Virus record (IMG/VR): IMGVR_UViG_3300037847_008158
Coordinates: 2,626 to 26,296 of that record
From: a virus
DNA: 23,671 bases
Strand: one strand, 5' to 3'
Part shown: in pieces, positions 1,480 through 21,967 of the stretch
Numbering within the stretch: position 1 is the stretch's first letter
Layout of the letters: each line of letters starts with the position of its first letter
Position numbers and translations under genes: made by a program
The notes under the pieces: model-generated
Databases searched by the model: none
What the model saw: the letters and a program-made list of their open reading frames with translations, nothing else
Told to the model about the DNA's origin: nothing

Positions 1480-1965
1480 ATGGCAGGAAGATTTCTCTCA
1501 ACGAGAGATAACAACTTTTTTCATAAAGTTAATAAAGAACTACTTGGAGATTCTTTAAGAAGTAAAGAAGGTATCATAAATCAAGAAGTTACTATATATC
1601 AACTTGATGAAAGAGAAACACCAACTGATATGTACGGTGAAGCCGCATCAGGAAAATCATGGAAGCCAGGTGTTACTTTGAAATGTGTTATTGATGCAGA
1701 AGATTTTGATTTTAACACAGATGAATTTGGACCTGAAAGAAATCAAAATGTAACGTTTGCTTTTTTAAGAGATTCAGTTTTAGAATCTAAAATGGTAATC
1801 AGTTTAGGTGATGTTGTAAATTGGAATTACGCATATTGGACTATATCAAGTTTGAATGAAAATCAGTTAATAGGTGGTATGCAAGACCAAAATTTTTCAG
1901 TAGTAGCAAGTGCGTACTTAACACGTTTAAGTAGTTTAGGTATTGAACAAGTGAGAGCAATATAA
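1480..1965 (+). CDS. Putative head-closure / neck protein
   Basis: This 161-residue protein starts 4 nt after the upstream stop and its TAA overlaps the next ATG by one base (TAATG), so translation is probably coupled. The N-terminus (SLRSKEGIINQEVTIYQLDE) leads into a beta-rich body. A GDVVNWNYAYWTISSLNENQ segment lies at about residues 115-134; a Gly-Asp-x-hydrophobic strand followed by a Tyr/Trp-rich strand is common in small head-closure and stopper proteins of tailed phages. The size and position between a connector candidate and the gp15-like gene fit a protein sealing the portal before the tail joins. This assignment rests on context and general strand pattern, not on a diagnostic motif. 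There is no good Shine-Dalgarno sequence, which supports coupling to the preceding gene. Confidence 0.45.
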   Translation: MAGRFLSTRDNNFFHKVNKELLGDSLRSKEGIINQEVTIYQLDERETPTDMYGEAASGKSWKPGVTLKCVIDAEDFDFNTDEFGPERNQNVTFAFLRDSVLESKMVISLGDVVNWNYAYWTISSLNENQLIGGMQDQNFSVVASAYLTRLSSLGIEQVRAI

Positions 1966-2834
1966 TGGCAAGTAGAAACATAGAACAAAAATTACCAAGA
2001 CCTATAGAATATACAGAAAAAAGAACTATCAATAGGTCTCGTGAGTTACGAAGAGATAATGATGATTACAAAAAAAATTATTCTATTACTCTTATGGACC
2101 ACGATGCGGCTGTTATGTATTATTTTAATGAAGTAATTAGACCTGCTGTAGAAGAAAATGGTAATCAAGTAAAAGTTCCAATTATGTATGCTAATCCTGA
2201 AAGATGGGCGAATGTAAGAAAATCAGGTTGGATGGTTGACAGAAATAAAAAAAGAATTATTCCTGTTATAGCTTTTAGAAGAGTTTCTATTGAAAAAGAC
2301 CCTAACTATGCTATTGACAAATTAGATGCTAATAAGCCAAGACTTAGTTATCAATTTCAAAAGAAGTATTCTATTAATAATCGTTATGATTTAATGAGTG
2401 CTATGAACGGTGCACAACCAAGTAATGAATTTCATTCTGTAACTATGCCTGACTATATGATTATGAATTATGAAGCAATAGTTTGGACAAACTTTACAGA
2501 CCAAATGAATAGAATTATTGAGAAGATTAATTTTACAGATGGTGCTTATTGGGGAGACCCTGGTAAATTTAAATTTCGTGCAAGTATAGATAGTTTTCAA
2601 GATGCCTCTGAATATGAACAAGAAAGACTAATCAGAACTAATTTTAGTTTTACATTTAATGGGTATCTATTACCTGAAGAGTTCAATGGAGTGTCTAATA
2701 CACAAAGAGGATTTTCACCAAAATTTCTTACTAACTTTTCAGAAACATCAGCTAATATTAATCAAACTTTAACTAATAGTGATATTAATGATAACAATAA
2801 CTATGGTCCTCCTTCTGTAGAAGGACAGGTGTAG
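1965..2834 (+). CDS. 15: gp15-like tail terminator / sheath stabiliser
   Basis: This 289-residue protein matches the order of conserved patches I know from T4 gp15. First comes an N-terminal helix with YYFNEVIRPAVEE, then a strand VKVPIMYANPERW (T4: IRVPITYASKEHF). Next is a basic segment with IIPVIAFRRVSIEKD and a PDYMIMNYEAIVWTNFTDQM strand-helix (T4: IKMIYELSIFTRYEDDM) leading into RIIEKINF. The last patch is RTNFSFTFNGYLLPEE (T4: IEWSLTFEVNGWMYPP). In T4, gp15 forms the hexameric ring that ends the tail tube and sheath and docks the tail to the neck. The C-terminal 40 residues are Asn/Ser-rich and probably flexible. It overlaps the previous gene by 1 nt. The match is from remembered family sequence, but the patches occur in the same order, so I am fairly confident. 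Confidence 0.75.
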   Translation: MASRNIEQKLPRPIEYTEKRTINRSRELRRDNDDYKKNYSITLMDHDAAVMYYFNEVIRPAVEENGNQVKVPIMYANPERWANVRKSGWMVDRNKKRIIPVIAFRRVSIEKDPNYAIDKLDANKPRLSYQFQKKYSINNRYDLMSAMNGAQPSNEFHSVTMPDYMIMNYEAIVWTNFTDQMNRIIEKINFTDGAYWGDPGKFKFRASIDSFQDASEYEQERLIRTNFSFTFNGYLLPEEFNGVSNTQRGFSPKFLTNFSETSANINQTLTNSDINDNNNYGPPSVEGQV

Positions 2835-2843: not shown

Positions 2844-3311
2844 ATGCCTGATGCTACAGATTTTTTAAGAACAAATCAAATAGGTCAACAAGAAGATTTA
2901 GAATTTACTAATGCAAATAGTGGACCTACTCTTTATGTTATGAGAGGACAAGGATTTCCTACAAGTTCAGCTGATACAAAAGCTATAGTCACTTATGGAT
3001 ACGTACAAGGAAATCTTTTAACTAAACAACAATATTTTTCAGGTAGTCAATCTGCTTCACTTGACGGAGATGGTAATCAAGTATTTCAAGTTAGTTTAGC
3101 AAATACAGGTTCACAAAATATTAATGGTGATACTTTAGAAATATATTTAAACGGATTAGCTTTGAGAAGAAATGAAGCACCTAATGTACACTCATCTGAT
3201 TATTTTAAATCTGATACTGATAAAGTTACTATTTACAAAGTAACAGGTTCTTATGGATATAATTTAAAAGATGAAGATAGAATAAAAATAAGGTTTAATC
3301 AAGGACTATAA
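2844..3311 (+). CDS. Small beta-rich virion protein A
   Basis: This 155-residue protein has a good ribosome site (AGGAGAG at 2832-2838). I do not recognise a named family. It is Gly/Ser/Asn-rich and beta-patterned. Its C-terminal half carries GDTLEIYLNGLALRRNE, then SSDYFKSDTDKVTIYKV, then YNLKDEDRIKIRFNQGL. This series (strand + hydrophobic-Asn-Gly, Asp-Tyr-Phe, strand, Asp-x-hydrophobic-x-I-x-[FY] strand) is repeated in the next gene, so the two are probably diverged copies of one small fibre or baseplate-type domain. It ends with TAATG, sharing one base with the next start. Position among tail-completion and fibre genes suggests a virion component, possibly an adaptor for the fibres downstream. 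Confidence 0.5.
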   Translation: MPDATDFLRTNQIGQQEDLEFTNANSGPTLYVMRGQGFPTSSADTKAIVTYGYVQGNLLTKQQYFSGSQSASLDGDGNQVFQVSLANTGSQNINGDTLEIYLNGLALRRNEAPNVHSSDYFKSDTDKVTIYKVTGSYGYNLKDEDRIKIRFNQGL

Positions 3312-4644: not shown

Positions 4645-6015
4645 ATGGCAAGTTGGAAAAAAATAATAGTATCAGGCAGTAGAGCGCATCTTAATGATGT
4701 AACTGCATCTTTCTTTAAAGGAGATGGTTCAGGTCTGACTAATGTCGGTGGTACAATATCAAATGATTTAGTAGTAGATAACGCTACTATTCAATTCAAT
4801 TCAGGTACTACATATGATGGTTCCTCTGAAAAAACTTTGTCTATCAAAGATGGAGGTGTTGATGCAGATGCTCTCGCAACAGGAGTAGCAGGTACAGGTA
4901 TCGCAGGTGGCGGTGGAACAGCACTTTCAGTAGATTTAAATGAAGTAGCCGCAGCTGTTGTAAATGTAGCAAATGATAGTATAGCAATAATTGATGCTGA
5001 TGGTTCTAATGCTACAAAGAAAGAATCTATTGCAGACCTTGTATCAGGAATAGCAGGTACAGGTTTAGATGCGGCAAGTGGTCAATTATCTGTAGATGTT
5101 TCTGATTTTATGAGCACCGGTGCTGATAACAGAGTTTTAACTGCTACAGGAACAGATGCTCTTCAAGGTGAAGCAAATCTTACTTTTGATGGAAGTGTTT
5201 TACTTGCAGGAGGAGCAAGTGCAGTAGTAAGTTCTTCAAAAATTGTATCAGAAGGTCACATAAGTGGTTCTTTGATTAGTGGTTCATTTTATGGTGATGG
5301 TTCAAACATTACAGGTGTATCTGCTACAGGTTTAAACATAGACGCTTTTGGTGCAGATGGTACAAGTGATACTATAGCAAGTGATGATAAATTTATATTT
5401 AGTGATGCGGGTACAGAAAAAAGAGCAAACATAAGTCAACTTGCGGCACCATTAGTTGGAACAGGTTTAGAGGCTAATAGTGGTACAATAAGAATAGCTG
5501 CGGCCGCAGCAGGTACAGGTTTAACAGGTGGTGCGGGTTCAGCATTAGATGTTGATTTATCAGGTGAATCTGCTGTATCAATCGGTGCAGGAACATCTAC
5601 CGTAACTTTTGGAGACAACGTTAGAATCAATGGTGACTTAACAATATTTGGTGATACGGTACAACAAAACGTTGCAAATTTATTAGTAGAAGATAAATTC
5701 ATTTTACTTAATAGTGGCTCTGCTTCAGGTGATGGTGGTATCATAGTACAAACTAACGCATCTTATGCGGGTGCGGCTTTAGTATTTGATGATGACATTA
5801 ATAGATGGGCAGTTGGTGCTGAAGATAAATTAGCACAAAATGCTACATCAGTAGACTCTGCCGCAGCAGGATTTCAATTTATAGTTTCTGTTTCAGGTTC
5901 AGCTAAAGACCCAATCGATGGCTCAAATCCAAATGACTTTGGAACAGCCGCAGCAAATAGAATTGGTATGATGCACGTTAATACTGCAACAGGAGATATA
6001 TTTATTTACTCTTAA
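4645..6015 (+). CDS. Tail-fibre-type structural protein with SWKK N-terminus
   Basis: This 456-residue protein begins MASWKKIIVSGSRAHLNDV, a short N-terminal signature seen in fibre proteins of marine T4-like phages and shared with the gene at 6494; it is probably the virion-attachment or assembly tag. The body is Gly/Ala/Ser/Asp-rich beta structure. There are two copies of a GSF-x-GDGS-x-T-V element (about 22-34 and 213-225) and several G-T-G-[IL]-x(n)-G-x-L-x-V-D units (about 83-98, 138-151, 272-285, 290-304). A conserved segment GDLTIFGDTVQQNVANLL followed by VEDKFILLNSGSA lies at 330-360, where a stretch of similar sequence occurs in many such fibres. The Ala/Gly repeats suggest a trimeric fibre shaft. 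No chaperone or protease domain is visible at the C-terminus. Confidence 0.7.
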   Translation: MASWKKIIVSGSRAHLNDVTASFFKGDGSGLTNVGGTISNDLVVDNATIQFNSGTTYDGSSEKTLSIKDGGVDADALATGVAGTGIAGGGGTALSVDLNEVAAAVVNVANDSIAIIDADGSNATKKESIADLVSGIAGTGLDAASGQLSVDVSDFMSTGADNRVLTATGTDALQGEANLTFDGSVLLAGGASAVVSSSKIVSEGHISGSLISGSFYGDGSNITGVSATGLNIDAFGADGTSDTIASDDKFIFSDAGTEKRANISQLAAPLVGTGLEANSGTIRIAAAAAGTGLTGGAGSALDVDLSGESAVSIGAGTSTVTFGDNVRINGDLTIFGDTVQQNVANLLVEDKFILLNSGSASGDGGIIVQTNASYAGAALVFDDDINRWAVGAEDKLAQNATSVDSAAAGFQFIVSVSGSAKDPIDGSNPNDFGTAAANRIGMMHVNTATGDIFIYS

Positions 6016-6493: not shown

Positions 6494-7558
6494 ATGCCAA
6501 GTTGGAAAAAAGTAATAACATCAGGCAGTAACGCAGTACTAAACGATATCACATCAAGTGGTGACATTAAAAACACCGAAGGTGATTTTACAATCGATGC
6601 AGTAGGTGATATTATTTTAGATGCAGACAATGCAGATGTAATTCTAAAAGATGGTGGAACTGAATTTGGTAGGTTAAGTAGAGTATCTTCTGATTTAGTT
6701 ATAAAATCTGCAACATCAAATAAAGACGTATTAATTAAAGGTAATGATGGTGGTTCAACTATAACTTCATTACAATTAGATATGTCTGATGCGGGAAGTG
6801 CGACATTTAATAACCACATTACAGCAAGTGGTAACGTAAAGACCGACTATAAAGGCAGGATGATTAGTAACCTTACTGAAGTAATAGAGGTTACGGTAGT
6901 TGATGATGGTGGTAATCATTTCGCTTTTGAAGGAGCAACAACTCCTAATTTAGTAGTTAGTGAAGGAAAAACTTATAGATTTGACCAATCAGATAGTTCA
7001 AATTCTACACATCCATTTGCATTTAGTTTGACAGAAGACGGCACAACATATACAACAGGTGTTACAACACGTGGAACTGCAGGAAGCGCAGGAGCTTATA
7101 CTGAATTAAAAGTAACAAAAGCAACTGCTGGTAAATTATTTTATAAGTGTACTGCTCATAGTGGTATGGGTAATCAAGGTAATATACTTAAAAATGATTT
7201 AACAAACTTTGGCGGAAACATAAAAGTTGATGCGGCGTTTACCGTAACACAAACAGCTTCTTCTATTACAGGCGCTAATAATATTGACTTATCTGCAAAA
7301 AACAATTACAATCTTACTTTAACCGGTAACGTCACTTTAACTCCAACAAACCTAACAGGTCGTGAAGGACAAAGTGGACTTATCGCTCTTATACAAGATA
7401 GTTCAGGTGGTCATTCAATAACTCTTAATTCATTGTTTAAAACCCCTCGAGGAAGTGCTATAACATTTGACACAACCGCCAACGGCATATCTTTAATGTC
7501 GTACTACGTGGTAAACACAAGTAACGTGGCAGTCAATTATTTAGGCCCGTTTTCATAA
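6494..7558 (+). CDS. Fibre protein with inserted cupredoxin-like domain
   Basis: This 354-residue protein begins MPSWKKVITSGSNAVLNDI, sharing the N-terminal tag of the fibre gene at 4645. Residues 20-118 form a repetitive beta region (GDF-x-I-D-A, GDI-x-L-D-A, ADV-x-L-K-D), typical of phage fibre shafts. Residues 131-233 are a separate domain ending in FYKCTAHSGMGNQG. That ending and the earlier STHPFAF give His173, Cys219, His222 and Met225, the ligand set of type-1 copper proteins; the C-x2-H-x2-M spacing is that of amicyanin. Similar domains occur, as far as I recall, in other marine phage structural proteins. Residues 234-354 are a beta-rich C-terminal region, perhaps the tip. The ribosome site is AGGAG (6480-6484). 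Whether copper is bound cannot be told from sequence; the fold may serve only as a surface-binding module. Confidence 0.7.
   Translation: MPSWKKVITSGSNAVLNDITSSGDIKNTEGDFTIDAVGDIILDADNADVILKDGGTEFGRLSRVSSDLVIKSATSNKDVLIKGNDGGSTITSLQLDMSDAGSATFNNHITASGNVKTDYKGRMISNLTEVIEVTVVDDGGNHFAFEGATTPNLVVSEGKTYRFDQSDSSNSTHPFAFSLTEDGTTYTTGVTTRGTAGSAGAYTELKVTKATAGKLFYKCTAHSGMGNQGNILKNDLTNFGGNIKVDAAFTVTQTASSITGANNIDLSAKNNYNLTLTGNVTLTPTNLTGREGQSGLIALIQDSSGGHSITLNSLFKTPRGSAITFDTTANGISLMSYYVVNTSNVAVNYLGPFS
6884..7192 (+). other. Cupredoxin-like domain (residues 131-233 of the fibre protein)
   Basis: The segment runs from IEVTVVDDGG to GNIL. It shows the order of a cupredoxin: first strands, a Gly-Lys-Thr-Tyr-Arg-Phe strand (158-163), S-N-S-T-H-P-F with His173, a loop with a Gly/Thr/Ala-rich stretch, then KLFYKCTAHSGMGN with Cys219, His222 and Met225. 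The Y-[KY]-C-x-x-H-x-x-M-x-G motif is the most diagnostic part. Confidence 0.7.
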
Positions 7559-7575: not shown

Positions 7576-10500
7576 ATGGCGAACGGCGCTTTTGGATTTC
7601 TTGAAGAATTAAAATTTAGTACAGAGTTTAACACAACTAAAGCTACTAATACCACCTTAATCACCTCAAAATCAACTGCTACTACATTAGCAACCGCTAC
7701 TACGTTAGCTACTACAACAACTTTTAATACTACAAAAGAAACAACTACAGAATATAACACTACTAAAGATACCACTACAACTTTTAATACTACACGAGAA
7801 ACAACTACAGAGTATATTACTTCAAACGTAACACAGACTACTCTTAATACAACTGCAGACACTATTACAACTTACAATACTATTACAACATATGATACCG
7901 CTACTACATTAGCAACTGCTACAAGCAAAACTACAACTACTACGTTTGAAACAAGTAAGACTACAACTACAACTTACAATACTACTAAAACAACCACAAC
8001 AACTTTTAACACTACTAAAGAAACAACAACCACTTTCAATACTACAGAAACCACGGCCACAACTTTTAACACCATAACGACTTACGATACTGCTACTACT
8101 TTAGCAACTGCTACAACTTTATCTACAATTACAACTTTTGAAACTTCAAAAGATACTACGACTACGTTTAATACTACAAAGTCAACTACAACTACTTACA
8201 ACACTACCCTTGCTACGGCCACTACTTTAGCAACTATAACTTCAATAGTAACACAGACAACATATGATACCACGCAAAGTACAACAACTACGTTTAATAC
8301 CATAACAACTTATGATACTGCTACAACGTTAGCTACTGCTACAAGTAAAACCACAACGACTACTTTTGAAACTACATTAGCTACAATTACAACTTTTAAT
8401 ACTACTAAATCAACCACAACTACATATGAAACCACATTAGCTACTGCTACAACTTTAGCAACTATAACTTCAATAGTAACACAGACAACTTACAATACTA
8501 CTCAAAGTACCACAACTACATTTAATACTATTACAACTTATAATACAGCTACAACATTAGCTACTGCTACAAGTAAATCTACGACCACAACTTTTGAAAC
8601 ACAGAAAACAACTACGACTACTTTCAATACCACCAAGTCAACTACAACAACTTTTAACACTACTAAAAGTACTACAACTACTTTTGAAACTACACAAAGT
8701 ACTACTACTACTTTTAACACAATTACAACGTATAACACCGCTACTACATTAGCAACTGCTACTACCTTGTCAACTATTACAACTTTTGAAACAACTAAAA
8801 GTACTACCACAACTTTTAATACTACTAAAGATACTACTACGACTTTCAACACTACAAGAAGTACCATTGAACAACGTTCTACAAGTACATCTAAGACAAC
8901 TACGACTACATTTAATACCACACAAAGCACAACTACAACTTTTAATACTATAACAACTTATGATACTGCTACTACATTAGCAACTGCTACAACTAAAAAT
9001 ACCACAACAACTTACGAAACTACGTTATCTACAATTACAACTTTTAATACTACTAAAAGTACGATAACTACTTATGAGACAACTTTATCTACTGCTACAA
9101 CTTTAGCAACTATAACTTCAATAGTAACGCAGACAACTTTTAATACCACACAAAGTACGATAACTACGTTCAATACAATCACAGCGTATAATACAATCAC
9201 AACTTTTAATACTACGAAGTCTACTACCACAACTTTTAATACTACTAAGAGTACGACAACTACATTTAATACTACAAAGTCCACTACAACGACTTTTAAC
9301 ACTACACAAGCCACTACAACTACATTTAATACTATTACAACATACGATACTGCTACTACATTAGCAACCGCTACAAGTAAGACCACAACGACTACTTTTG
9401 AAACTACGTTGGCTACAATTACAACTTTTAATACTACGAAGTCAACTATAACTACATATGAAACTACGTTAGCTACTGCAACCACTTTAGCAACTATAAC
9501 CTCAATAGTAACTTCAACGACTTTTAATACTACTCAGAGCACCACAACTACGTTTAATACCATTACAACATATTCTACGATTACAACTTTTCAAACACAG
9601 AAAACAACTACGACTACTTTTGAAACTACTAAGAGTACTACTACAACTTTTAATACTTCGAAAACAACTATTGAACAACGTTCTACGATTACATCGAAAA
9701 CAACTACAACAACTTTTGAAACTACTAAAGATACAATTACGGTCTATAATACAATTACAAAATATAATACTATTACGACTTACGAAACTTCAAAGACAAC
9801 TACAACAACTTTTAATACTACAAAGTCTACGACAACAACCTTTAATACCACAAAGTCTACAATTACAACCTACAATACTACACAGACGACCACTACAACG
9901 TTTAATACGATTACAACATATAATACTGCTACTACTTTAGCTACTGCTACAAGTAAGACTACAACAACTACATTTAATACCACAAAGTCTACGACTACAA
10001 CCTTTAATACTACTAAAGATACTACTACGACTTTCAACACCACAAGGTCAACTATTGAAACACGAAGTACTTCAACTTCAAAAACAACTACCACAACTTT
10101 TGAAACTACAAAAACAACCACTACAACGTTTAATACAATTACAACGTATGCTACTATTACAACTTATGAGACTTCAAAGTCAACAACTACAACCTATGAA
10201 ACTTCAAAGTCAACAACTACAACTTTTAATACCACAAGAAGTACTATTGAACAACGTTCTACGATTACATCAAAAACAACTACAACAACTTTTAACACTA
10301 CAAAAGATACAACTACGGTTTATAATACAATAACCAAGTATAATACGATTACAACCTATGAAACTTCGAAGAGTACGACAACAACTTTTAATACCTCAAG
10401 AATAACTATTGAGACAAGGAATACCTCTACTTCAAGAAATACTACTACAACTTTTAACACTACACAAACGACTACTACCACGTTTAACACTATTACAACT

Positions 10501-13500
10501 TATGCTACAGCAACGACATTGGCAACAGCTACATCAAAAAGTACTACAACAACTTTTAATACTTCTAAATCAACTACAACCGTATTTAGTACAATTACAA
10601 AATTTAATACTATTACAACTTTCGCAACTTCAAAGTCAACAACTACTACCTTTAACACTACTTTGGCTACTGCGACAAGTAGGAATACTATAACTTCAAT
10701 AGTAACCTCAACGGTCTACAATACTACTCAAAGTACCACAACTACTTTTAATACGATTACAACGTATTCTACTATTACAACCTTTGAAACTACGTTATCT
10801 ACTATTACAACTTTTAATACTTCGAAGTCAACTACTACAACTTTTAATACAAGTAAAAATACTTTAGAAGTAAGGTCAACTATAACTTCAATAGTAACAC
10901 AGACGACATATAATACTACACAGAATACTACCACAACGTTTAATACAATTACAACGTATGCCACTATTACAACATTTGCAACTTCAAAGTCAACTATAAC
11001 GACTTTTAATACTACGTTAGCAACTTCAACTTCAAGAAATACTGCTACATCAAAAACCACTACAACTACTTTTAATACAAGTAAAAATACTTTAGAAGTA
11101 AGGGCCACTTCTACTTCGAAAAGTACCATAACAACTTTTAATACAAGTAGAAACACTATTGAACAAAGAACCACATCTACTTCAAAAACTACTACAACCG
11201 TATTCAGCACAATTACTACTTATGCGACGATTACAACTTTTAATACTTCGAAGTTAACGGTATCTTCTTTTAATACTACACTATCAACTAAAGAAGTGAG
11301 GTCTACTTCTACTTCGAAGAATACTTCAACGGTTTATAATACTACTTTAACAACTGCAACGGTTTTCAGTACTATTACGGTTTATTCTACTATTACAACT
11401 TTTAATACTTCGAAGTCAACTATCACGACCTACAACACCACAAGGTCAACTATTGAAACAAGAAATACTATTACTTCGAAGTCAACTATAACGACTTTTA
11501 ATACTACATTAGCAACTATTGAATCAAGAAATACTTCTACTTCAAAAACTACGTCAACTGCGTATGCTACTATTACTACTAAATCAACTATTACAACTTT
11601 TAATACAAGCAGAAATACTATTGAAACAAGAGCTACTTCTACTTCGAAAAGTACAACTACTACTTTTGGTACAATTACAACTTATTCTACGATTACAACT
11701 TTTAATACTTCGAAGTCAACTACAACTACTTATAACACTTCGAAGTCAACTACTACGGTTTATAGTACAATTACATCATACTCTACTATTACAACGTTTG
11801 CAACTTCGAAGTCAACCACAACTATATTTAGTACTATTACTGCTTATAATACTTCAACGGTTTTTAATACCACGTTAGCAACAATTACGGTTTACTCTAC
11901 GATTACAACGTATGCTACTATTACAACTTTTAATACAAGTAAAAATACTTTAGAAACAAGAAATACAATTACTTCTAAGAATACTATTGAATCAAGGTCA
12001 ACCGCTACTTCAATAGCTACGATTACAACTTTTGAAACGAGTAGAAACACTATTGAATCAAGGTCAACGGCTACTTCAAAAAATACAACTACAATTTATA
12101 GTACAACTACAACGTATTCTACTATCACAACTTATCAAACTTATAGAAGCACTATTACTGCTTTTAATACTATTACCGTATATACAGGTATTTCATTGTT
12201 TAATACTTCAAAATCTGCAAGTACATCGAAGTCAACTATTGAATCAAGAAATACAACAACAACTTTTAATACAAGCAGGACTACAACATACGCAACATCA
12301 AAGTCTACAAATACAACTACTTTAACAACATTTAATACAATTACAACGTATAATACGACATATTATACTTTTTATAAAACGTTGTATAGAACTTATTTTA
12401 ATACTTATTTTCCTTTTTATAATCCACCATTTAAAATTACATATAGAAATACAAGTAGAAATACCTACAGAAGTACTTCGAAGAGTACTCAAATAGCAAC
12501 TTCGACTTCAAGAAATACTATTACGCAAACTATAACGACTTTTAATACGGTAAGGACTACAACGTTTGAAACTACTAAGGACACCACAACTATATATAGC
12601 ACTATTACTACTTTTAATACGATTGTCACATTCCAAACTTCGATTGCTACAATTTTACAACGGGCTACTTCTACTACAGGTAGTACTAATACGGTTTATA
12701 ATACCACGCTCTCAACCATTGAATCGAGGAGTACGATTACATCAAAGTCAACTACAACAACTTTTAATACTACTACGACATATACCACCTCGACAACTTT
12801 TAATACTACACAAGCCACTACAACGACTTTTAACACAATTACATCTTATACCACTTCAACCGTATTTGCTACACTTACTGCATACATTACAAGTACGACC
12901 TACAATACTACAAGGTCAACTATTGAGACACGTGCTACGATTACATCGAAGTCAACTATAACTACATTTAGTACAATTATACCTAATACTTTAGAAACAC
13001 GTTCTACCATTACTTCTAAAAATACGACTACAACTTATAATACCACAAGGTCAACTATCGAATCACGTGCAACGATTACATCGAAAAATACAACTACTAC
13101 ATATAATACTACAAAGAGTACTACAACGACTTACAACACCACAAGGTCAACTATTGAAACGAGAACTACTGCTACTTCAAAAAGTACTACAACTACGTAT
13201 AATACGATTACTACTTATACCACTTCGACAACTTTTAATACTACAAAGTCTACGACTACTGCATATGCTACTATTACTTCGAAGAATACAACAACTACAT
13301 TTAGTACTACTACGATTTATTCTACGATTACAACTTTTAATACTACAAAAAGCACTACGACTGCTTATAGTACGATTACAACGTATGCTACTATTACAAC
13401 TTTTAATACCACTAAAAGTACTACTACAGAATATAACACTACGAGGTCAACGATTGAGTCACGTGCAACGATTACTTCAAAGAATACCACAACTACTTAT

Positions 13501-16500
13501 AATACAAGTAAAAGTACTACTACGGTTTTTAATACAAATACTACATATAATACTATTACAACGTTTATTACTACGATAGGCACCTCTACAACTTATAATA
13601 CTACAAGGTCAACTATTGAGACACGTGCAACGATTACTTCAAAGGATACCACAACTACTTACGGTACAACTACAACTTATACCACTTCAACAACTTTCAA
13701 TACTACAAAAAATACAACTACGGTTTATAATACTATTACTGCATATATTACAAGTACAACTTTTAATACTACAAAAGATACTACTACAACCTATGCGACT
13801 ATAACTACATTTAATACAATAACAACTTTTAATACTACAAAGAGTACTATAACAACTTACAACACCACAAGGTCAACTATTGAAACAAGAGCAACGTCTA
13901 CTTCAAAAAATACTATCACAACGTTTGAGACTAATAAAAACACTAACACCGTTTTCTCAACTATTACTGCATATATTACGAGTACAACTTTCAATACTAC
14001 AAAGAGTACTACAACTACTTTTAATACTACGAAGTCAACTATTACTAAGTTTAATACCACAAAGTCAACTATTGAAACAAGAGCGACTTCGACTTCAAAA
14101 AGCACTATTACGACTTTTGAGACTACTAAAAACACTAACACCGTTTTCTCAACTATTACAACATTTAACACAATAACAACTTTTAATACCACAAAGTCTA
14201 CGACTACAACTTACAACACCACAACATCTACTCTTACAAGTAAAAACACTATAACTACAAAGAGTACTACAACAACTTACAATACCACAAAATCTACGAC
14301 TACAACGTATAATACTATTACTACGTACAATACTGCTACAACTTTAGCAACTGCTACTTCAAAAAATACTACTACGACTTTTGAAACTTCAAAAAATACT
14401 ACAACTACGTTTACTACGATTACAGAATACTCAACCACAACTACATTTAATACGACTAAAACTACAACTACTACATTTAATACTACCAAAAGTACTTCAG
14501 AATCAAGAGCGACTTCTACTTCAAAGACCACCACAACTACTTTTGAAACTGATAAAGTAACTAATACGGTTTACTCGACTATTACAGCATATGCAACTAT
14601 AACAACTTTTAACACTACTAAAAGTACTACAACTACGTTTAATACTAATACTACAACTACGACAACTTTTAACACTACAAAGTCAACTATTGAAACAAGA
14701 GCGACTTCGACTTCAAAAAATACTACAACTACTTTTGAAACTGATAAAGTAACTAATACGGTTTACACAACTATTACAACTTACTCAACTATAACAACGT
14801 TTGAAACTACAAAAACGACCACTACAACTTTCAATACAACAAAGAGTACAACAACTACTTTTGAAACTTCAAAAGACACTACTACAACGTTTAATACAAT
14901 TACAACTTATAACACAGCAACGACATTAGCAACTGCTACTTCAAAAAACACCACAACAACGTTTGAAACTACAAAGTCAACCACTACGACTTTCAATACA
15001 ACAAAGTCTACAACTACAACTTTTAATACTACTAAAGATACGACAACTACGTTCAATACTACTACTACAACTTTAGAATCAAGGTCAACTTCTACTTCAA
15101 AGTCAACCACAACAACTTTTAATACTACAAAAATTACGAACACCGTATATGAAACGATTACTATTTATGAAACTACAACTACGTTTAATACTACCAAGAC
15201 AACTACAACAACTTTTAATACCTCTACGTTAACCACTACGAAGTATAATACTACGAGGTCAACTATTGAAACAAGAGCAACGTCTACTTCAAAAAGTACT
15301 ATAACAACCTTTGAAACAAATAAAAATACTAATACGGTTTTTTCAACTATTACGACTTTTAATACAATAACGACTTTCAATACTACAAAGTCTACAACTA
15401 CAACTTTTAATACTACGAAGTCAACTATTACTACGTTTAATACTACGCAGGCTACGACAACTACGTTTAATACAATTACAACTTACAATACAGCTACCAC
15501 ATTAGCTACTGCTACTTCAAAAAGTACTACAACAACTTTTGAAACAACTAAGAGTACGACAACAACCTTTAATACTACAAAGTCAACTACAACTACTTTT
15601 AATACTACAAAGTCAACTACTACAACTTATGAAACTACTAAAAGTACTGAGACAAAATTAGCAACTGCTACAACATTAGCAACTATTACAACTTTTGAAA
15701 CCGTAAAGAATACGAATACGGTTTTTAACACTATTACAACATTTAACACAATAACAACTTTTAATACTACAAAATCAACCACTACAACTTTTAATACTAC
15801 TAAGAGTACGACAACAACCTTTAATACTACAAAGAGTACGACAACTACATTTAATACGATTACTACTTACAACACAGCTACAACATTAGCTACTGCTACT
15901 ACTTTAGCAACTATTACAACTTTTGAAACTTCAAAAGATACTACGACTACTTATAGTACAATTACATCGTATGCAACTATAACAACTTTTGAAACTACAA
16001 AAACAACCACTACGACTTTTAATACTACGAAGACTACAACTACGACCTTTAACACTACTCAAAGTACCACAACTACTTTCAATACAATTACTACATATGA
16101 TACTGCTACGACTTTAGCAACTGCTACTTCAAAAAATACTACTACGACTTTTGAAACTACTAAGAGTACTACTACAACTTTTAATACTACAAAAACGACT
16201 ACTACGACTTTTGAAACTTCTAAGTTAACTACTACTAAGTTTAATACTACAACAAGTACCATAACAACTTATAACACGATTACAACTTATGATACTGCAA
16301 CGACATTGGCAACCGCTACAACATTAGCAACTATCACAACTTTTGAAACCGTAAAGAATACAAATACCGTATTCAATACTATTACAACGTTTAATACTAT
16401 TACAACGTTTAATACTACGACCACTACGACAACTACATTTAATACTACGAAGTCAACTATTACTAAGTTTAATACTACGCAGGCTACTACAACTACTTTC

Positions 16501-17472
16501 AACACAATTACTACGTACAATACTGCTACAACATTAGCTACTGCTACTACTTTAGCAACTATTACAACTTTTGAAACCATAAAGAATACAAATACCGTAT
16601 TCAATACTATTACGACTTTTAATACTATTACAACGTTTGAAACAAATACAACAACTACTACGACTTTCAATACAACAAAGTCTACAACTACAACTTACAA
16701 TACTACTCAAAGTACTACAACTACTTTTAACACTATAACAACTTATAATACGGCTACTACTTTAGTAACTGCTACTTCAATAGCTACGATTACAACTTTT
16801 GAAACCGTAAAGAATACAAATACGGTTTTTGAAACAATAACAACTTTTAATACTATTACAACATTTGAAACAAATACAACAACTACTACAACTTTTAATA
16901 CTACTAAGACAACCACTACGACTTTTAATACTACTCAAAGCACTACAACCACGTTTAATACAATTACAACTTATAACACAGCTACTACATTAGCAACGTC
17001 TACAAGTAAAAATACTTCAACAACTTTTGAAACAAGTAAAAGTACAACGACTACGTTTAATACTACTAAGACAACCACTACGACTTTTGAAACAAGTAAG
17101 ACCGTAACTACGGTTTACAACACTACACTACCTACTACAACTACGTTTAATACAATTACAACTTATAATACTGCTACTACTTTAGCAACAGCAACATCTA
17201 AGTCTACAACTACTACCTTTGAAACAACTAAAAACACTAATACGGTTTATAATACTACTACGACCACTACGACAACTTTTGAAACAACTAAGACTACTAC
17301 AACGACTTTCAATACGACAAAAACTACAATTACAACTTTTGAAACAACAAAAGATACAATTACAACGTTTAATACGATTACAACTTTTGATACTATAACA
17401 GAATATACAACAACTTTTGAAACTATTACGACTTACAATACGACTCGAATAACAAGTTACTACGTATCCTAA
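7576..17472 (+). CDS. Giant Thr/Asn-rich repeat protein, probable long virion fibre (3298 aa)
   Basis: This single open frame of 3298 codons starts at ATG 7576 with AAGGGA (7564-7569) as ribosome site. About 15 unique residues (MANGAFGFLEELKF) precede the repeats, and a short end (NTTRITSYYVS) follows them. Everything between is built from tetrads such as F-N-T-T and hexads such as K-S-T-T-T-T, L-A-T-A-T-T, F-N-T-I-T-T, R-S-T-I-E-T. By eye about half the residues are Thr; I noticed no Cys, Trp or His. All spacings between the anchor residues are even (4, 6, 10, 12), which suits alternating in/out residues of beta-strands and suggests a solenoid or fibrous beta-structure. A Tyr/Phe/Pro-rich break lies near the middle (residues 1592-1624). 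It sits after fibre genes and before a glycan operon, so a surface fibre is likely. I do not recognise a named family. A tape measure is unlikely, since those are helical. Confidence 0.8.
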   Translation: MANGAFGFLEELKFSTEFNTTKATNTTLITSKSTATTLATATTLATTTTFNTTKETTTEYNTTKDTTTTFNTTRETTTEYITSNVTQTTLNTTADTITTYNTITTYDTATTLATATSKTTTTTFETSKTTTTTYNTTKTTTTTFNTTKETTTTFNTTETTATTFNTITTYDTATTLATATTLSTITTFETSKDTTTTFNTTKSTTTTYNTTLATATTLATITSIVTQTTYDTTQSTTTTFNTITTYDTATTLATATSKTTTTTFETTLATITTFNTTKSTTTTYETTLATATTLATITSIVTQTTYNTTQSTTTTFNTITTYNTATTLATATSKSTTTTFETQKTTTTTFNTTKSTTTTFNTTKSTTTTFETTQSTTTTFNTITTYNTATTLATATTLSTITTFETTKSTTTTFNTTKDTTTTFNTTRSTIEQRSTSTSKTTTTTFNTTQSTTTTFNTITTYDTATTLATATTKNTTTTYETTLSTITTFNTTKSTITTYETTLSTATTLATITSIVTQTTFNTTQSTITTFNTITAYNTITTFNTTKSTTTTFNTTKSTTTTFNTTKSTTTTFNTTQATTTTFNTITTYDTATTLATATSKTTTTTFETTLATITTFNTTKSTITTYETTLATATTLATITSIVTSTTFNTTQSTTTTFNTITTYSTITTFQTQKTTTTTFETTKSTTTTFNTSKTTIEQRSTITSKTTTTTFETTKDTITVYNTITKYNTITTYETSKTTTTTFNTTKSTTTTFNTTKSTITTYNTTQTTTTTFNTITTYNTATTLATATSKTTTTTFNTTKSTTTTFNTTKDTTTTFNTTRSTIETRSTSTSKTTTTTFETTKTTTTTFNTITTYATITTYETSKSTTTTYETSKSTTTTFNTTRSTIEQRSTITSKTTTTTFNTTKDTTTVYNTITKYNTITTYETSKSTTTTFNTSRITIETRNTSTSRNTTTTFNTTQTTTTTFNTITTYATATTLATATSKSTTTTFNTSKSTTTVFSTITKFNTITTFATSKSTTTTFNTTLATATSRNTITSIVTSTVYNTTQSTTTTFNTITTYSTITTFETTLSTITTFNTSKSTTTTFNTSKNTLEVRSTITSIVTQTTYNTTQNTTTTFNTITTYATITTFATSKSTITTFNTTLATSTSRNTATSKTTTTTFNTSKNTLEVRATSTSKSTITTFNTSRNTIEQRTTSTSKTTTTVFSTITTYATITTFNTSKLTVSSFNTTLSTKEVRSTSTSKNTSTVYNTTLTTATVFSTITVYSTITTFNTSKSTITTYNTTRSTIETRNTITSKSTITTFNTTLATIESRNTSTSKTTSTAYATITTKSTITTFNTSRNTIETRATSTSKSTTTTFGTITTYSTITTFNTSKSTTTTYNTSKSTTTVYSTITSYSTITTFATSKSTTTIFSTITAYNTSTVFNTTLATITVYSTITTYATITTFNTSKNTLETRNTITSKNTIESRSTATSIATITTFETSRNTIESRSTATSKNTTTIYSTTTTYSTITTYQTYRSTITAFNTITVYTGISLFNTSKSASTSKSTIESRNTTTTFNTSRTTTYATSKSTNTTTLTTFNTITTYNTTYYTFYKTLYRTYFNTYFPFYNPPFKITYRNTSRNTYRSTSKSTQIATSTSRNTITQTITTFNTVRTTTFETTKDTTTIYSTITTFNTIVTFQTSIATILQRATSTTGSTNTVYNTTLSTIESRSTITSKSTTTTFNTTTTYTTSTTFNTTQATTTTFNTITSYTTSTVFATLTAYITSTTYNTTRSTIETRATITSKSTITTFSTIIPNTLETRSTITSKNTTTTYNTTRSTIESRATITSKNTTTTYNTTKSTTTTYNTTRSTIETRTTATSKSTTTTYNTITTYTTSTTFNTTKSTTTAYATITSKNTTTTFSTTTIYSTITTFNTTKSTTTAYSTITTYATITTFNTTKSTTTEYNTTRSTIESRATITSKNTTTTYNTSKSTTTVFNTNTTYNTITTFITTIGTSTTYNTTRSTIETRATITSKDTTTTYGTTTTYTTSTTFNTTKNTTTVYNTITAYITSTTFNTTKDTTTTYATITTFNTITTFNTTKSTITTYNTTRSTIETRATSTSKNTITTFETNKNTNTVFSTITAYITSTTFNTTKSTTTTFNTTKSTITKFNTTKSTIETRATSTSKSTITTFETTKNTNTVFSTITTFNTITTFNTTKSTTTTYNTTTSTLTSKNTITTKSTTTTYNTTKSTTTTYNTITTYNTATTLATATSKNTTTTFETSKNTTTTFTTITEYSTTTTFNTTKTTTTTFNTTKSTSESRATSTSKTTTTTFETDKVTNTVYSTITAYATITTFNTTKSTTTTFNTNTTTTTTFNTTKSTIETRATSTSKNTTTTFETDKVTNTVYTTITTYSTITTFETTKTTTTTFNTTKSTTTTFETSKDTTTTFNTITTYNTATTLATATSKNTTTTFETTKSTTTTFNTTKSTTTTFNTTKDTTTTFNTTTTTLESRSTSTSKSTTTTFNTTKITNTVYETITIYETTTTFNTTKTTTTTFNTSTLTTTKYNTTRSTIETRATSTSKSTITTFETNKNTNTVFSTITTFNTITTFNTTKSTTTTFNTTKSTITTFNTTQATTTTFNTITTYNTATTLATATSKSTTTTFETTKSTTTTFNTTKSTTTTFNTTKSTTTTYETTKSTETKLATATTLATITTFETVKNTNTVFNTITTFNTITTFNTTKSTTTTFNTTKSTTTTFNTTKSTTTTFNTITTYNTATTLATATTLATITTFETSKDTTTTYSTITSYATITTFETTKTTTTTFNTTKTTTTTFNTTQSTTTTFNTITTYDTATTLATATSKNTTTTFETTKSTTTTFNTTKTTTTTFETSKLTTTKFNTTTSTITTYNTITTYDTATTLATATTLATITTFETVKNTNTVFNTITTFNTITTFNTTTTTTTTFNTTKSTITKFNTTQATTTTFNTITTYNTATTLATATTLATITTFETIKNTNTVFNTITTFNTITTFETNTTTTTTFNTTKSTTTTYNTTQSTTTTFNTITTYNTATTLVTATSIATITTFETVKNTNTVFETITTFNTITTFETNTTTTTTFNTTKTTTTTFNTTQSTTTTFNTITTYNTATTLATSTSKNTSTTFETSKSTTTTFNTTKTTTTTFETSKTVTTVYNTTLPTTTTFNTITTYNTATTLATATSKSTTTTFETTKNTNTVYNTTTTTTTTFETTKTTTTTFNTTKTTITTFETTKDTITTFNTITTFDTITEYTTTFETITTYNTTRITSYYVS
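7640..17450 (+). repeat. Degenerate 12/18/30-nt coding repeat array
   Basis: The DNA repeats with 30-nt units (10 codons) mixed with 18- and 12-nt units, matching the hexad/tetrad protein grammar. Successive copies differ mainly at third codon positions: Thr is written with ACA, ACT, ACG and ACC, Asn with AAT/AAC, Phe mostly TTT. Protein copies are therefore far more alike than DNA copies. Recurrent longer cassettes, for example F-N-T-I-T-T-Y-[DN]-T-A-T-T-L-A-T-A-T, occur before about 10.6 kb and again after about 14.3 kb. Confidence 0.9.
12349..12447 (+). other. Tyr/Phe/Pro-rich central interruption of the giant protein (residues 1592-1624)
   Basis: The repeats break into an aromatic segment with TFYKTLYRTYFNTYFPFYN, then Pro-Pro-Phe-Lys-Ile-Thr-Tyr. 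It has a 4-residue rhythm (T-F-Y-K, T-L-Y-R, T-Y-F-N) and one of the rare proline clusters of the protein. The gene midpoint is near 12524, so this lies almost at the centre. It may be a hinge, a kink or a binding site. Confidence 0.75.
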
Positions 17473-18525: not shown

Positions 18526-19932
18526 ATGAAAAAAGTTTCAGTTTCAAATGTAACATTCGGCGGTAAAGATACACCTTTGATAGCAGGACCTTGTGTTGTT
18601 GAGACATACAAACTTGCTACAGATGTTGCAAAACAACTTGTAAAAATAGGAGAAAAAACAAATACTCCTATAGTTTATAAAAGTTCTTTTGATAAAGCAA
18701 ATCGTTCTTCTAATTCATCATACAGAGGCCCGGGTATAGAAAAAGGATTAGAAGCACTTAGAAGAGTAAAAAATGAAACCAACTTACCTGTTCTTACTGA
18801 TATACACGAAGTACATCACGTAAAAGAAGTAGCAGAAGTTGCTGACATATTACAAATACCCGCATTTTTGTGTAGACAGACAGACTTAATAAAAGCCGCA
18901 GCACAAACAGGTAAAGTAGTAAATGTTAAGAAAGGTCAATTTTTATCTCCTTGGGAAATAGAAAATGTAATAATAAAAATTACAGAAGAAGGTAACGAGA
19001 ATATTCTGATTACAGAACGTGGAACACAATTTGGATATAACAATCTTGTAGTAGATATGAGGTCAATACCTATTATGCAAGAGTTTGGATTTCCTGTAAT
19101 ATTTGATGCAACTCATAGTAATCAATTACCTGGAGGCAACGGAACATCAACTGCAGGTATGAGAAATATGGTTCCGTATTTAGCTAAAGCCGCAGTTGCT
19201 GTTGGGTGTGATGGGTTGTTTTTTGAAACACATCCTAATCCTAAAGAAGCAAAATCAGATGCCTCTACTCAATGGCCTTTAGATGAATTAGAAGAAGTTA
19301 TTTCAAATCTAAAGATGAAGCCAGCTAAGATAGTAGAAAGTAAAACAAAAAGTAGTGCAGACTTGTATAAAGAAAGACTTGATAAAAAGTTAAAATCACA
19401 CTCTGATACAAGTCAAATCAATGAAGTAGATTTTGATAACTTACCCGTAGCTAAACAAAAAAGAACAAATGATAATGGATTTTTATCTACTGCTAAAAAA
19501 TTAATGGAAGAAAGAAATTTAACTGAAAGTGTTTCTATTTCAAGTGTTGAAGATTTAGATGTTATGAAAGATAAAAAAGCAGAAGCAATTCTTTGTGATG
19601 GTTTTCTTGATACTTTGAATCCTGTTGAAGTTGATTTAAATTTAGTTACTTTATTTAACTCAGCATCAAGATTAATTTTTTTACAACTCGAACCATCAAG
19701 AAGACCTATGGATTGGTGGGTACAAAAATTTCAATTTCTAAGAGAAAGACACGACCAAAAAGAATTGGATATTTTTGTAGTTTTTAAAGCAGAGCCTAAT
19801 AGACTTAGAATGATAACTCTGCCTAAAAACTATTATCAAAAGAAAGAAGAAGAAGAACGTGAATCAAAGGTAAAAAGACTTCCTTTGGTCCGTTGGAATA
19901 ACCCTGAAAATAAACCTAAACCGAGACTATAA
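18526..19932 (+). CDS. kdsA: Kdo-8-phosphate synthase (class II) with extra C-terminal domain
   Basis: Residues 1-265 are a full-length 3-deoxy-D-manno-octulosonate-8-phosphate synthase, which condenses arabinose-5-phosphate with phosphoenolpyruvate, the committed step to Kdo of lipopolysaccharide. Family landmarks are IAGPC (19-23), KSSFDKANRSS (52-62), SYRGPG (65-70), TDIHE (91-95), IPAFLCRQTDL (111-121), NVKKGQF (133-139), FGYNNLVVDMRS (169-180), FDATHS (193-198), FFETHPNP (232-239) and SDAST (244-248). Cys23, His197, Glu234 and Asp245 align with the metal ligands of Aquifex-type, metal-dependent enzymes, whereas E. coli KdsA has Asn at the first position. Residues 266-468 are extra, since normal KdsA has about 280 residues. 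They hold a charged linker and then a domain resembling half of a SAM methyltransferase. AGGAG (18515-18519) is the ribosome site. Confidence 0.92.
   Translation: MKKVSVSNVTFGGKDTPLIAGPCVVETYKLATDVAKQLVKIGEKTNTPIVYKSSFDKANRSSNSSYRGPGIEKGLEALRRVKNETNLPVLTDIHEVHHVKEVAEVADILQIPAFLCRQTDLIKAAAQTGKVVNVKKGQFLSPWEIENVIIKITEEGNENILITERGTQFGYNNLVVDMRSIPIMQEFGFPVIFDATHSNQLPGGNGTSTAGMRNMVPYLAKAAVAVGCDGLFFETHPNPKEAKSDASTQWPLDELEEVISNLKMKPAKIVESKTKSSADLYKERLDKKLKSHSDTSQINEVDFDNLPVAKQKRTNDNGFLSTAKKLMEERNLTESVSISSVEDLDVMKDKKAEAILCDGFLDTLNPVEVDLNLVTLFNSASRLIFLQLEPSRRPMDWWVQKFQFLRERHDQKELDIFVVFKAEPNRLRMITLPKNYYQKKEEEERESKVKRLPLVRWNNPENKPKPRL
19321..19929 (+). other. C-terminal extension of KdsA (residues 266-468), methyltransferase-like half
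   Basis: After a Lys/Ser-rich linker (266-316) comes an alpha/beta region: FLSTAKKLMEERNL (319-332), ILCDGFLDTLNPVEVDLNLV (355-374), ASRLIFLQLEP (380-390) and RRPMDWWVQKFQFL (392-405). A hydrophobic strand ending in C-x-x-x-L-x-x-[IL]-x-P, a second strand, and R-P-x-[ED]-W-W-x-x-K match, from memory, the later half of phage and bacterial class I methyltransferases. The Gly-rich SAM-binding motif I is absent, so it is probably not an active methyltransferase. The end is very basic. Confidence 0.5.
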
Positions 19933-19933: not shown

Positions 19934-20278
19934 ATGCACACAGCAGGAAAAGTATGGGGCAAGACAGCTAATATATTTTCTAATCCTAATTTTGAAGTAC
20001 ATAGGATTGAAGTGAATAAAGGCGGTTATTGTTCTAAACATAAACACAAATATAAATTCAATGCTTTCTATGTAGAGAGTGGTGAATTAGAAATTATAAT
20101 TTATAAAAATGATTACGATTTAGTAGATACTACGGTTCTTAAAGCAGGTGATATGACTATCGCAAAACCTGGAGAGTATCATAGTTTTAAAGCAAATGCA
20201 AAAACAATTTGTTATGAATTTTATTGGGCTGAATTAAATCACGATGATATTGAAAGAGAATCTGTAGGTGGTATGTAG
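19934..20278 (+). CDS. Single-domain cupin, sugar-isomerase-like
   Basis: This 114-residue protein starts one base after the kdsA stop. It has the two cupin motifs: G-x(4)-K-H-K-H (31-38, His36 and His38) with Asn43 where a Glu ligand is usual, then G50; and G-D-M-T-I-A-K-P-G-x-x-H (72-83, His83). Length and layout resemble the C-terminal cupin of mannose-6-phosphate isomerase/GDP-mannose pyrophosphorylase and single-domain sugar-phosphate isomerases or epimerases. Loss of the Glu leaves three His as candidate metal ligands. In this operon it may isomerise or epimerise a sugar or sugar nucleotide, or only bind it. It is soluble. Its TAG stop overlaps the next gene's GTG start by one base. Confidence 0.75.
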   Translation: MHTAGKVWGKTANIFSNPNFEVHRIEVNKGGYCSKHKHKYKFNAFYVESGELEIIIYKNDYDLVDTTVLKAGDMTIAKPGEYHSFKANAKTICYEFYWAELNHDDIERESVGGM

Positions 20279-21069
20279 TGCTAACTATTCCTATTGAAGA
20301 ACTTGTAAGAGATAAAAGAGTTATACTTGTAGGCAACTCTGTAGAGATGATGCATTATGAGTATGGAGATTTTATTGATTCTTTTGATATTGTAATACAT
20401 CACGGGGCGGCTATAGCAAGAACTAAAGCTAATCATAAAAGTCTTGGGAGTAGAACTGATATATGGATTACAGGTTCTTTTAGATTCAACACGATAAAAA
20501 CTTTGAAAACAGATTTTTATGATGGACAATATAAAGATACTATGATATTGTTTAATCGTGTTAGAACTAAATTATTAAATATAGAAGACCAAATAATATG
20601 GGATAATAGTTTGCCGCAAGTTCCAAGAATAGATATGTTTAATGATATCGAAATAGTACAGATGTTAGATGAACTAAAATATATGGAAGGATTTGGAGAT
20701 GGATATAGAGGTCCTGCTCACGGAATGAGACCTTCTGCAGGATTTATGTCTTTATTATATTTTACTAAAAAAGTAACTACTTATAAAAGTTTAGACATTA
20801 TAGGTTTTGATTTTTTTAGAAAAATAACTGAAGAAAAAAGACAAGGAACAGACAATCCATTTAGTTGGTATCTTCCTATAAAAAATCAAGGTTCAGGTGC
20901 GCATCCACATAACGGAAAATTAGAATATAACTACGTAAAAAAATTAGCAGAGGACAAAAAAATCAAATGGAATGTTTTATCTGATTTAAAAGAAGAGACT
21001 TTAGATTATGATAGACAATGGTTATCCGGAAGTATGTTTGATAATTGGTCAGATGAAAAAGATAGATGA
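20278..21069 (+). CDS. GT29-like (sialyltransferase-fold) glycosyltransferase
   Basis: This 263-residue protein starts at GTG 20278, which shares its G with the previous TAG; this reading (MLTIPIEELVRDKRVILVGNS) places the nucleotide-binding strand at the N-terminus. Motifs in order are VILVGNS (15-21), IDSFDIVIHHG (33-43), GSRTDIWIT (57-65), RPSAGFMSLLYF (151-162), LDIIGFDFF (172-180) and H-N-G-K-L-E (211-216). VGNS + acidic helix, the later P-S-[AT]-G strand start, and H-x4-E correspond to sialyl motifs L, S and VS of CAZy family 29. Family 29 uses CMP-sugars such as CMP-sialic acid, and CMP-Kdo is chemically similar, so together with kdsA this suggests a nonulosonate or Kdo transfer. No membrane anchor is present, so it acts in the cytoplasm. 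The donor is inferred only. Confidence 0.65.
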   Translation: MLTIPIEELVRDKRVILVGNSVEMMHYEYGDFIDSFDIVIHHGAAIARTKANHKSLGSRTDIWITGSFRFNTIKTLKTDFYDGQYKDTMILFNRVRTKLLNIEDQIIWDNSLPQVPRIDMFNDIEIVQMLDELKYMEGFGDGYRGPAHGMRPSAGFMSLLYFTKKVTTYKSLDIIGFDFFRKITEEKRQGTDNPFSWYLPIKNQGSGAHPHNGKLEYNYVKKLAEDKKIKWNVLSDLKEETLDYDRQWLSGSMFDNWSDEKDR

Positions 21070-21967
21070 TAAACATAGTTTTCTTCAGTATCGAAAAGAC
21101 CAGGAGAAGAAGCACTTACAATTAATTGAAAATACTAAGAATCCCTTACATAGTATTTTAACGGTTGAGATGAATCTTACAGAATTATGTAATAGAAAAT
21201 GTGTTTTTTGTCCACGTCACGACCCTAAAGTATATCCAAACAGAAATTTAAATACAACTATAGAAGATGCAAGTACAATAGCTAAACGATTAGCAGATTT
21301 TAATTATGTTGGAAGAATATCTTTCAGTGGATTTGGAGAGAACTTTTTAAATAAACAATTTAATGAAATTGTTCAAGCGATGCGAAACGAATTGCCTAAT
21401 AATGTATTTGAGTGTAACACTAATGGTGATTTTCTAAATAAAAAAACCGTTACTGAAATATATGAAAGTGGTATGGATATGTTATACATAAATCTATACG
21501 ATGGTCTTGAACAAATAGAACCTTTTGTTGAGATAATGAAAGAAGCAGGTATATCTGAAGACAATTACAAGTTACGTGCGCATCACACACAAGATGAATG
21601 GGGATTATTTGTTAATAATAGAAGTGGACTTATAGATTGGATAGGATTTGATGAAGACGATATTGAAAATTTAAAAGGAACAAAATGTCACTATCCTTAT
21701 TATAAAATGTTTGTAGATTGGAATGGCGATGTGTTGTTTTGTTCTAATGATTGGGGTAGAGAAATAGTAGTAGGTAATTTAATTGAAAGTTCTGTTATGG
21801 ATGTTTGGATGGGTGAAGAGATGAAAAAAGTTCGTGATAGACTTTCAGTAGGAGATAGAAGTCACAGCCCGTGTAATACGTGTTCAGTAAAAGGTGACTT
21901 ATTTGGAGAGCCAAGTTTTAATTTAATTAATGAGTATTATGAGAGTAGCAATAACAGGTCACACTAA
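21053..21967 (+). CDS. Radical SAM enzyme with SPASM-type C-terminus
   Basis: I chose ATG 21053 (17-nt overlap with the previous gene). An earlier in-frame ATG at 21008 would add 15 residues and overlap 62 nt; neither has a good ribosome site. The 304-residue product has L-T-E-L-C-N-R-K-C-V-F-C (Cys46, Cys50, Cys53; C-x3-C-x2-C) that binds the [4Fe-4S] cluster and SAM. ISFSGFGEN (89-97) is the usual GGE-like strand, and CNTNG (121-125) follows. The C-terminus has KCHYPYYKMFVDWNGDVLFC (Cys212, Cys230) and C-N-T-C (274, 277), a SPASM-like auxiliary cluster site. Such enzymes modify peptides or sugars (dehydrogenation, epimerisation, dehydration). Substrate is unknown; the operon suggests a sugar nucleotide, but a peptide target cannot be excluded. 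Confidence 0.82.
   Translation: MKKIDDKHSFLQYRKDQEKKHLQLIENTKNPLHSILTVEMNLTELCNRKCVFCPRHDPKVYPNRNLNTTIEDASTIAKRLADFNYVGRISFSGFGENFLNKQFNEIVQAMRNELPNNVFECNTNGDFLNKKTVTEIYESGMDMLYINLYDGLEQIEPFVEIMKEAGISEDNYKLRAHHTQDEWGLFVNNRSGLIDWIGFDEDDIENLKGTKCHYPYYKMFVDWNGDVLFCSNDWGREIVVGNLIESSVMDVWMGEEMKKVRDRLSVGDRSHSPCNTCSVKGDLFGEPSFNLINEYYESSNNRSH

Follow-up and report, generated by a model that had tools for sequence, protein, structure and literature searches.

A giant threonine-rich phage protein with antiparallel-matched arms and its zipper-like relatives

The locus and its genes

The window, a 23,671-nucleotide stretch of DNA from a viral record of 26,296 bases, contains an ATG frame for a giant Thr-rich protein of 3298 residues, here called the zipper protein. 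It lies among the following genes.

318-1475: head-tail adaptor, upstream of the zipper gene
1965..2834, + strand: T4 gp15-like tail sheath stabiliser
4645-6015: 456-aa structural-block protein with a weak match to a Chlorovirus glycoprotein repeat
6494..7558, + strand: tail-fibre-like gene (phrog_30742, 6.4e-26), directly upstream of the zipper gene
7576..17472, + strand: giant Thr-rich zipper protein, 3298 aa
17545..18516, + strand: partner gene of the phrog_26179 family, 323 aa, next gene 3' of the zipper gene
18526..19932, + strand: KDO-8-phosphate synthase (KdsA, residues 4-263) plus an extra C-terminal part of about 200 aa
19934..20278, + strand: cupin protein, part of an accessory sugar cluster
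20278..21069, + strand: GT29 (sialyltransferase-like) glycosyltransferase, accessory
21008..21967, + strand: radical SAM/SPASM enzyme, accessory

Among named phages, Flavobacterium phage immuto has the sheath stabiliser closest to that of the window (40% identity), and the presence of this gp15-like protein identifies the locus as the structural block of a T4-like myovirus. The KDO-8-phosphate synthase, cupin, GT29-like and radical SAM genes are regarded as accessory because they are confined to the phages with giant zipper proteins and a few others. The C-terminal part of KdsA belongs to no known family and is conserved only in the giant lineage. Homologues of the radical SAM/SPASM enzyme were also seen at L120, a zipper locus of the second family described below, and at L023.

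The zipper protein consists of 48.6% Thr (57% Thr and Ser together), with 5 Pro and 7 Gly, i.e. 12 such residues in 3298, and it has no His, Cys or Trp. It gave no match to Pfam, PHROG or the PDB, in searches that are limited by low-complexity filters. Searches with tblastn and hmmscan applying zipper proteins found nothing, most likely because the same filters mask them, and the partner gene was therefore used as the probe instead. Distant blastn matches to Staphylococcus phages were rejected as AT-rich simple-repeat matches. A literature search, which covered few subscription papers, gave no description of such a class. The proposal of the initial annotation that the protein represents an undescribed class of giant fibre within the structural block is thus supported by the gene context, by the relatives and by the absence of family and literature matches.

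Unit grammar and antiparallel matching of the two arms

The protein had initially been read as a chain of tetrads and hexads. A parse by dynamic programming, with the tetrad defined as leader-x-T-x and the hexad as leader-x-T-x-T-x, bore this out: 91.1% of the residues fell into perfect units with only two frame slips, at Met1 and at a residue near 1802, as compared with 17-20% (about 19%) in the shuffled protein. The accompanying description of the aromatic spacings fared less well. Instead of 4, 6, 10 or 12 they are mainly 10 (131 cases), 6 (102), 22 (35) and 18 (19), with 4 occurring six times and 12 twice. Nor are they essentially always even: 12 of the 318 have odd values, most of these in the middle and at the C-terminus. 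The suggestion that insertions are allowed only in units that preserve the same face agrees with alignments of the window protein (W) and three relatives from IMG/VR, B (3309 aa), C (3333 aa) and D (3418 aa), in which almost all gaps are even (48/49 for W/B, 54/56 for W/D and 2/2 for B/C).

A stronger rule than the spacing rule had been overlooked. If the first 18 residues, the middle (about 1568-1664) and a few residues at the C-terminal end are set aside, every tetrad is followed by 1, 3 or 5 hexads before the next one (173 of 173 cases). Because the number of hexads is odd, the true unit is a two-slot turn of either 10 (4+6) or 12 (6+6) residues, and because the rule breaks at residues 1-18, at 1568-1664 and at the C-terminus, the protein splits into two nearly equal arms. 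The unit KSTTTT occurs in 44 copies with 33 DNA spellings and FNTT in 74 copies with 18 spellings; with so many spellings per repeated unit, it is selection on the protein that maintains the grammar. The protein was divided as follows.

7576..7626, + strand: N-terminal base segment, residues 1-17 (MANGAFGFLEELKFSTE), conserved in relatives; presumed virion anchor
7627..12348, + strand: N-terminal arm, residues 18-1591, with an equal-length C-arm partner for every unit
12349..12495, + strand: apex, about residues 1592-1640, aromatic-rich and holding three of the five prolines of the protein (YFPFYNPPF); presumed distal tip
12496..17448, + strand: C-terminal arm, residues 1641-3291, matched antiparallel to the N-terminal arm
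12982..12984, + strand: single unpaired residue 1803 (bulge), where the register shifts by one
16831..17058, + strand: residues 3086-3161, 76 residues of the register path that have no N-arm partner

A hairpin of the two arms would require the turns of one arm to run in the reverse order of those of the other. In the relatives, the reverse-order match between the turns of the N-arm and the C-arm was 135/135 (B), 136/136 (C) and 133/134 (D), whereas the best of 200 arm shuffles reached about 0.75. A parallel duplication of the arms was rejected, since the parallel turn order gives no match. Tetrad starts fell at exactly i+j = constant in 81/81 (B), 81/81 (C) and 87/88 (D) cases over 1,500 positions, and in an independent 1990-aa relative from a 126-kb record in 52/52. 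In the window protein, each of the 292 units is faced by one of the same length, over 1,574 rungs and with two register shifts, residues 18-147 lying opposite 3162-3291, 148-1429 opposite 1804-3085 and 1430-1591 opposite 1641-1802. The 76 residues left over in the C-arm may be a real bulge, a one-sided insertion or deletion, or a collapsed assembly.

The match is specific to each protein and to one register. An N-arm agrees with its own C-arm at 0.97-1.0 and with the C-arms of diverged relatives at 0.63-0.68, 80-97% of 20-turn segments have a single occurrence in the opposite arm, and off-register matches are near half. Judged from the sequence, the arms are matched antiparallel, residue by residue, with the irregular succession of turns of 10 and 12 residues as a probable register key, and the governing constraint is this mirror-image pairing of the two halves, which the initial annotation had not seen. 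Neither direct nor inverted DNA repeats can give like amino-acid units in reversed order, and the units are spelled with varied codons, so that the match reflects selection on the pairing.

In this register, leaders lie opposite leaders, tetrads opposite tetrads and hexads opposite hexads. A leader rung consists of one aromatic residue (F/Y) and one K, R, L, Q or T; exactly one aromatic was found in 290 of the 292 leader rungs of the window protein and two aromatics in none. Across the giant family, the residue facing K is F/Y in 313/313 cases, that facing R in 176/176 and that facing L in 100/101, and at the inner positions Thr is almost always opposite Thr. Covariation extends beyond unit length, with mutual information (MI) z-scores of up to 66 against within-class shuffles. 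Two relatives that are 90% identical differ by paired 12-aa indels at mirror positions of both arms, and compensation of the same type is seen in rungs flipped from R:Y to F:K and from K:F to Y:R. Other families share the rule, with His opposite Tyr in 185 of about 216 His pairs, and also with W:Q.

Relatives, two-gene systems and the partner gene

A degenerate DNA pattern for two decads was found in at least 119 stretches of viral contigs, at loci encoding Thr-rich proteins of about 230 to 3,400 aa, and only once in 257 billion bases of prokaryote genomes, on a phage-like contig in a Flavobacteriales bin. Superfamily members range from 215 to 3,418 residues and are essentially viral. They are defined by antiparallel unit matching and an adjacent partner gene of the phrog_26179 family, both of which the window has.

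A conserved partner almost always comes after the zipper: its relatives lie at most 150 bases 3' of the zipper gene or genes at 74 loci of every size and architecture, and each of 13 large records carries one copy. Among 395 genomes of the class to which the Flavobacteriales bin belongs, the partner occurs in one, the same phage-bearing bin. The phrog_26179 annotation carries no known function, and searches of the partner protein against the PDB and NCBIfam gave no real match. Its KPHP and SES motifs recall GT-B transferases, a lead only; hhalign comparisons with polysialyltransferase-like proteins did not back a glycosyltransferase assignment (probability below 1%). The partner would serve as a dedicated maturation factor, either as a chaperone or as a fibre-modifying glycosyltransferase.

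Members made of one chain, 228 to 1,701 aa long, are self-mirroring, and their pairing begins about 9 residues from the N-terminus at any length. The short ones have a near-periodic pattern, in which slipping may be limited by the tip and the ends, and in the small members about 100 aa without repeats make up the apex. A second family (MAIYVNDGG...) is also self-mirroring, with the first paired residue at 15-17. It comprises L063, L120, L118, L016 and L102, whose proteins start with MTIKV..., MAIYVNDGG... or MAIKIWDG... and end with WDG; with its offset of 15-17 it is differently anchored, and its partner homologues are distant.

In the two-gene systems, the arms are encoded by two adjacent genes, neither of which mirrors itself. 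Gene 1 is instead antiparallel to gene 2 of its own phage, with MI z-scores of up to 12.4. When ten genes 1 were tested against ten genes 2, the own gene 2 scored best (0.051-0.180 on the diagonal against 0.019-0.086 off it). At the apex end of L022 gene 1, an S74 endosialidase-type chaperone domain was detected above the Pfam cut-off.

Cultured examples were found in the Caulobacter phages Lullwater (gp41, 215 aa) and BL199 (gp042, 217 aa). Both proteins are self-mirroring, with 0 of 1000 shuffles each reaching the same match, and both are encoded directly 3' of the tail fibre gene. Like the window, these phages have a self-mirroring Thr-rich protein followed by a member of the partner family (gp42, adjoining gp41, in Lullwater and gp043 in BL199), but they are Autographiviridae phages and their proteins have 215-217 residues, a simpler pattern and 26-27% Thr. 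In Caulobacter phage Cr30, a partner homologue (L143 11851-12816) lies directly 3' of gp254 (L143 11497-11847), a very short T/Y-rich protein that shows no significant mirroring and is perhaps a degenerate or minimal form of the zipper.

A proposed fold-back fibre and alternative explanations

While the arm matching is read directly from the sequence, we infer beta structure, a trimer, a tip and a location in the virion. It is probable that the protein forms a fold-back fibre, with both ends at the base, the middle as the tip and the arms paired as above. The strict even parity and the richness in Thr suggest that the arms would pair as antiparallel beta-strands. Both termini would sit at the virion base, and the apex (1592-1640) would be the distal, receptor-contacting tip. 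Three such hairpins would then build a thin six-stranded needle; the trimer is suggested by the T4 gp37 analogy and by the presence of the S74 chaperone domain in relatives. With 10- and 12-residue units following one another irregularly, the low-complexity arms would be kept from slipping, and in the giants the KDO/GT29 cluster may decorate Thr and Ser on the outer face. At about 0.33 nm per residue, 1574 rungs would give a fibre of about 0.5 micrometre; the initial annotation had put the extended chain near one micrometre, which a fold at the middle would reduce to about half. AlphaFold2 monomer predictions for a 289-aa relative, with a six-row alignment, and for window residues 1489-1740 gave pLDDT values of 31 and 34, too low to lend the fold structural support.

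On a broader reading, which we hold to be reasonably likely, phages have evolved a code of strand complementarity written in sequence, by which one long chain or two adjacent gene products zip up in antiparallel fashion, keeping to one register for hundreds to 1,600 residues, into fibres of up to about half a micrometre that a dedicated partner protein matures. The code would consist of an aromatic opposite K/R/H/Q/L/T, with preferences for Y:H and W:Q, of Thr:Thr and of irregular unit lengths.

In T4 gp37, each chain extends to the tip and returns, which gives a six-stranded antiparallel needle (PMC9603124, PMC9659904), and the long tail fibre of T4 measures about 0.144 micrometre (700 + 740 Å, PMC3004832). 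The gp37 needle (stem, about 882-1009) resembles the proposed zipper in its out-and-back chain with both ends at the base, and the antiparallel match of N- and C-terminal halves expected of such a chain is found, as far as sequence can tell, in 292/292 units. The strands, however, have about 50 residues in gp37 and about 1,600 in the window protein, and the zipper needle would be about 30 times longer. The gp37 stem is rich in Gly, Ser, Thr and His with HxH motifs, whereas the window protein has almost no Gly and, being devoid of His, no metal-binding HxH motif of this type. The PDB search, limited by low-complexity filters, gave no sequence match between the two, and gp37 has no long complementary unit code; in the checks made on it, of composition and His pairing, a single register was not clear. 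Tail fibres and spikes of the Peptidase_S74 type share their chaperone with gene 1 of some two-gene relatives, where it sits at the apex end of one zipper half, but the window protein has no C-terminal S74 domain by Pfam. Its 10- and 12-residue units also differ from the triple beta-spirals of adenovirus and T4 gp12, with their repeats of about 15 residues and Gly/Pro turns.

The mirror symmetry alone would also fit an antiparallel homodimer. A self-complementary chain can pair with another copy, and pairing between arms on different chains is seen in the two-gene systems, so that two copies could form an antiparallel duplex paired over its full length of about 1 micrometre, with no fold-back. 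On the other hand, the apex lies outside the zipper code, being Gly/Pro- or aromatic-rich and, in small members, a non-repetitive stretch of about 100 aa. The split between the genes also falls at the apex, so that the arms stay one zipper unit, and the known analogue gp37 folds back (PMC9603124). The duplex is unlikely.

The 10- and 12-residue turns and the strict even parity would also suit a two-start beta-solenoid, a shorter and thicker rod in which each coil is made of one N-arm and one C-arm turn. Coils of 10-12 residues occur in the small insect antifreeze solenoids. In a solenoid, however, neighbouring turns must stack, as in ice-binding TxT arrays with their constant coil and stacked like residues, and here neighbouring turns tend to differ in length (lag-1 agreement of 0.24-0.39 against about 0.51 expected), the exact match existing only across the mirror. 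A rod of this kind appears distinctly improbable.

Very little probability is given to a mucin-like protein, i.e. a disordered Thr/Ser scaffold with O-linked sugars from the KDO/GT29 cluster, acting as a glycan shield or adhesin. It would account for the 57% Thr and Ser, for the KDO-8P synthase and GT29-like transferase directly downstream in the giant lineage and, as a lead, for the motifs of the partner. A disordered chain without long-range pairing has no need of residue-exact antiparallel matching over 1,574 positions, and the sugar cluster is absent from most relatives, KdsA being found in 16 of 46 records, many of which are fragments. Glycosylation may nevertheless coexist with the zipper. 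That the pattern is functionless, arising from simple DNA repeat expansion or misassembly, can practically be dismissed: the DNA of the zipper gene contains a great many tandem repeats of 30, 60 and 192 bases and the C-arm excess of 76 residues could be a collapsed repeat, but direct DNA repeats yield parallel protein patterns and inverted ones unrelated patterns, never like units in reversed order, relative B was recovered from six IMG/VR contigs, and both the two-gene phages and the cultured phage genomes show the same mirror.

Coiled-coil zippers, with pairing codes of natural or designed origin, likewise have sequence rules that pick partner and register; they are alpha-helical, short and periodic, whereas the code of the window zipper would be irregular and span hundreds to 1,600 residues. 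To our knowledge, no protein system reads partner and register over a thousand residues by simple residue pairing in the manner of nucleic acids. Should structure agree with the fold-back zipper, it would represent a new fibre architecture, with strand partners that the sequence by itself predicts, and would give the design of protein zippers a model from nature. A large set of unannotated Thr-rich proteins of marine phages, which low-complexity filters probably hide from BLAST and HMM searches, would also be accounted for. Lullwater gp41/gp42 offers a cultured model for the zipper fibre.

Two further features were observed in the relatives. Frameshifts occur in the zipper genes L011 6292-11410, L030 gene 1 (C-terminus), L052 8179-9300 and L146 1831-2475, the last being Quill gp041, which is shortened by it; they often lie in repeat tracts or near the apex and are due either to errors in assembly or to phase variation of the fibre. 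Hint/intein-like domains, with a Cys at the start and HN at the end, gave weak Pfam matches at the apex-side end of gene 1 where a zipper is split into two genes (L018, about residues 972-1149, and the C-terminus in L043), and self-processing or splicing at the fibre tip is possible.
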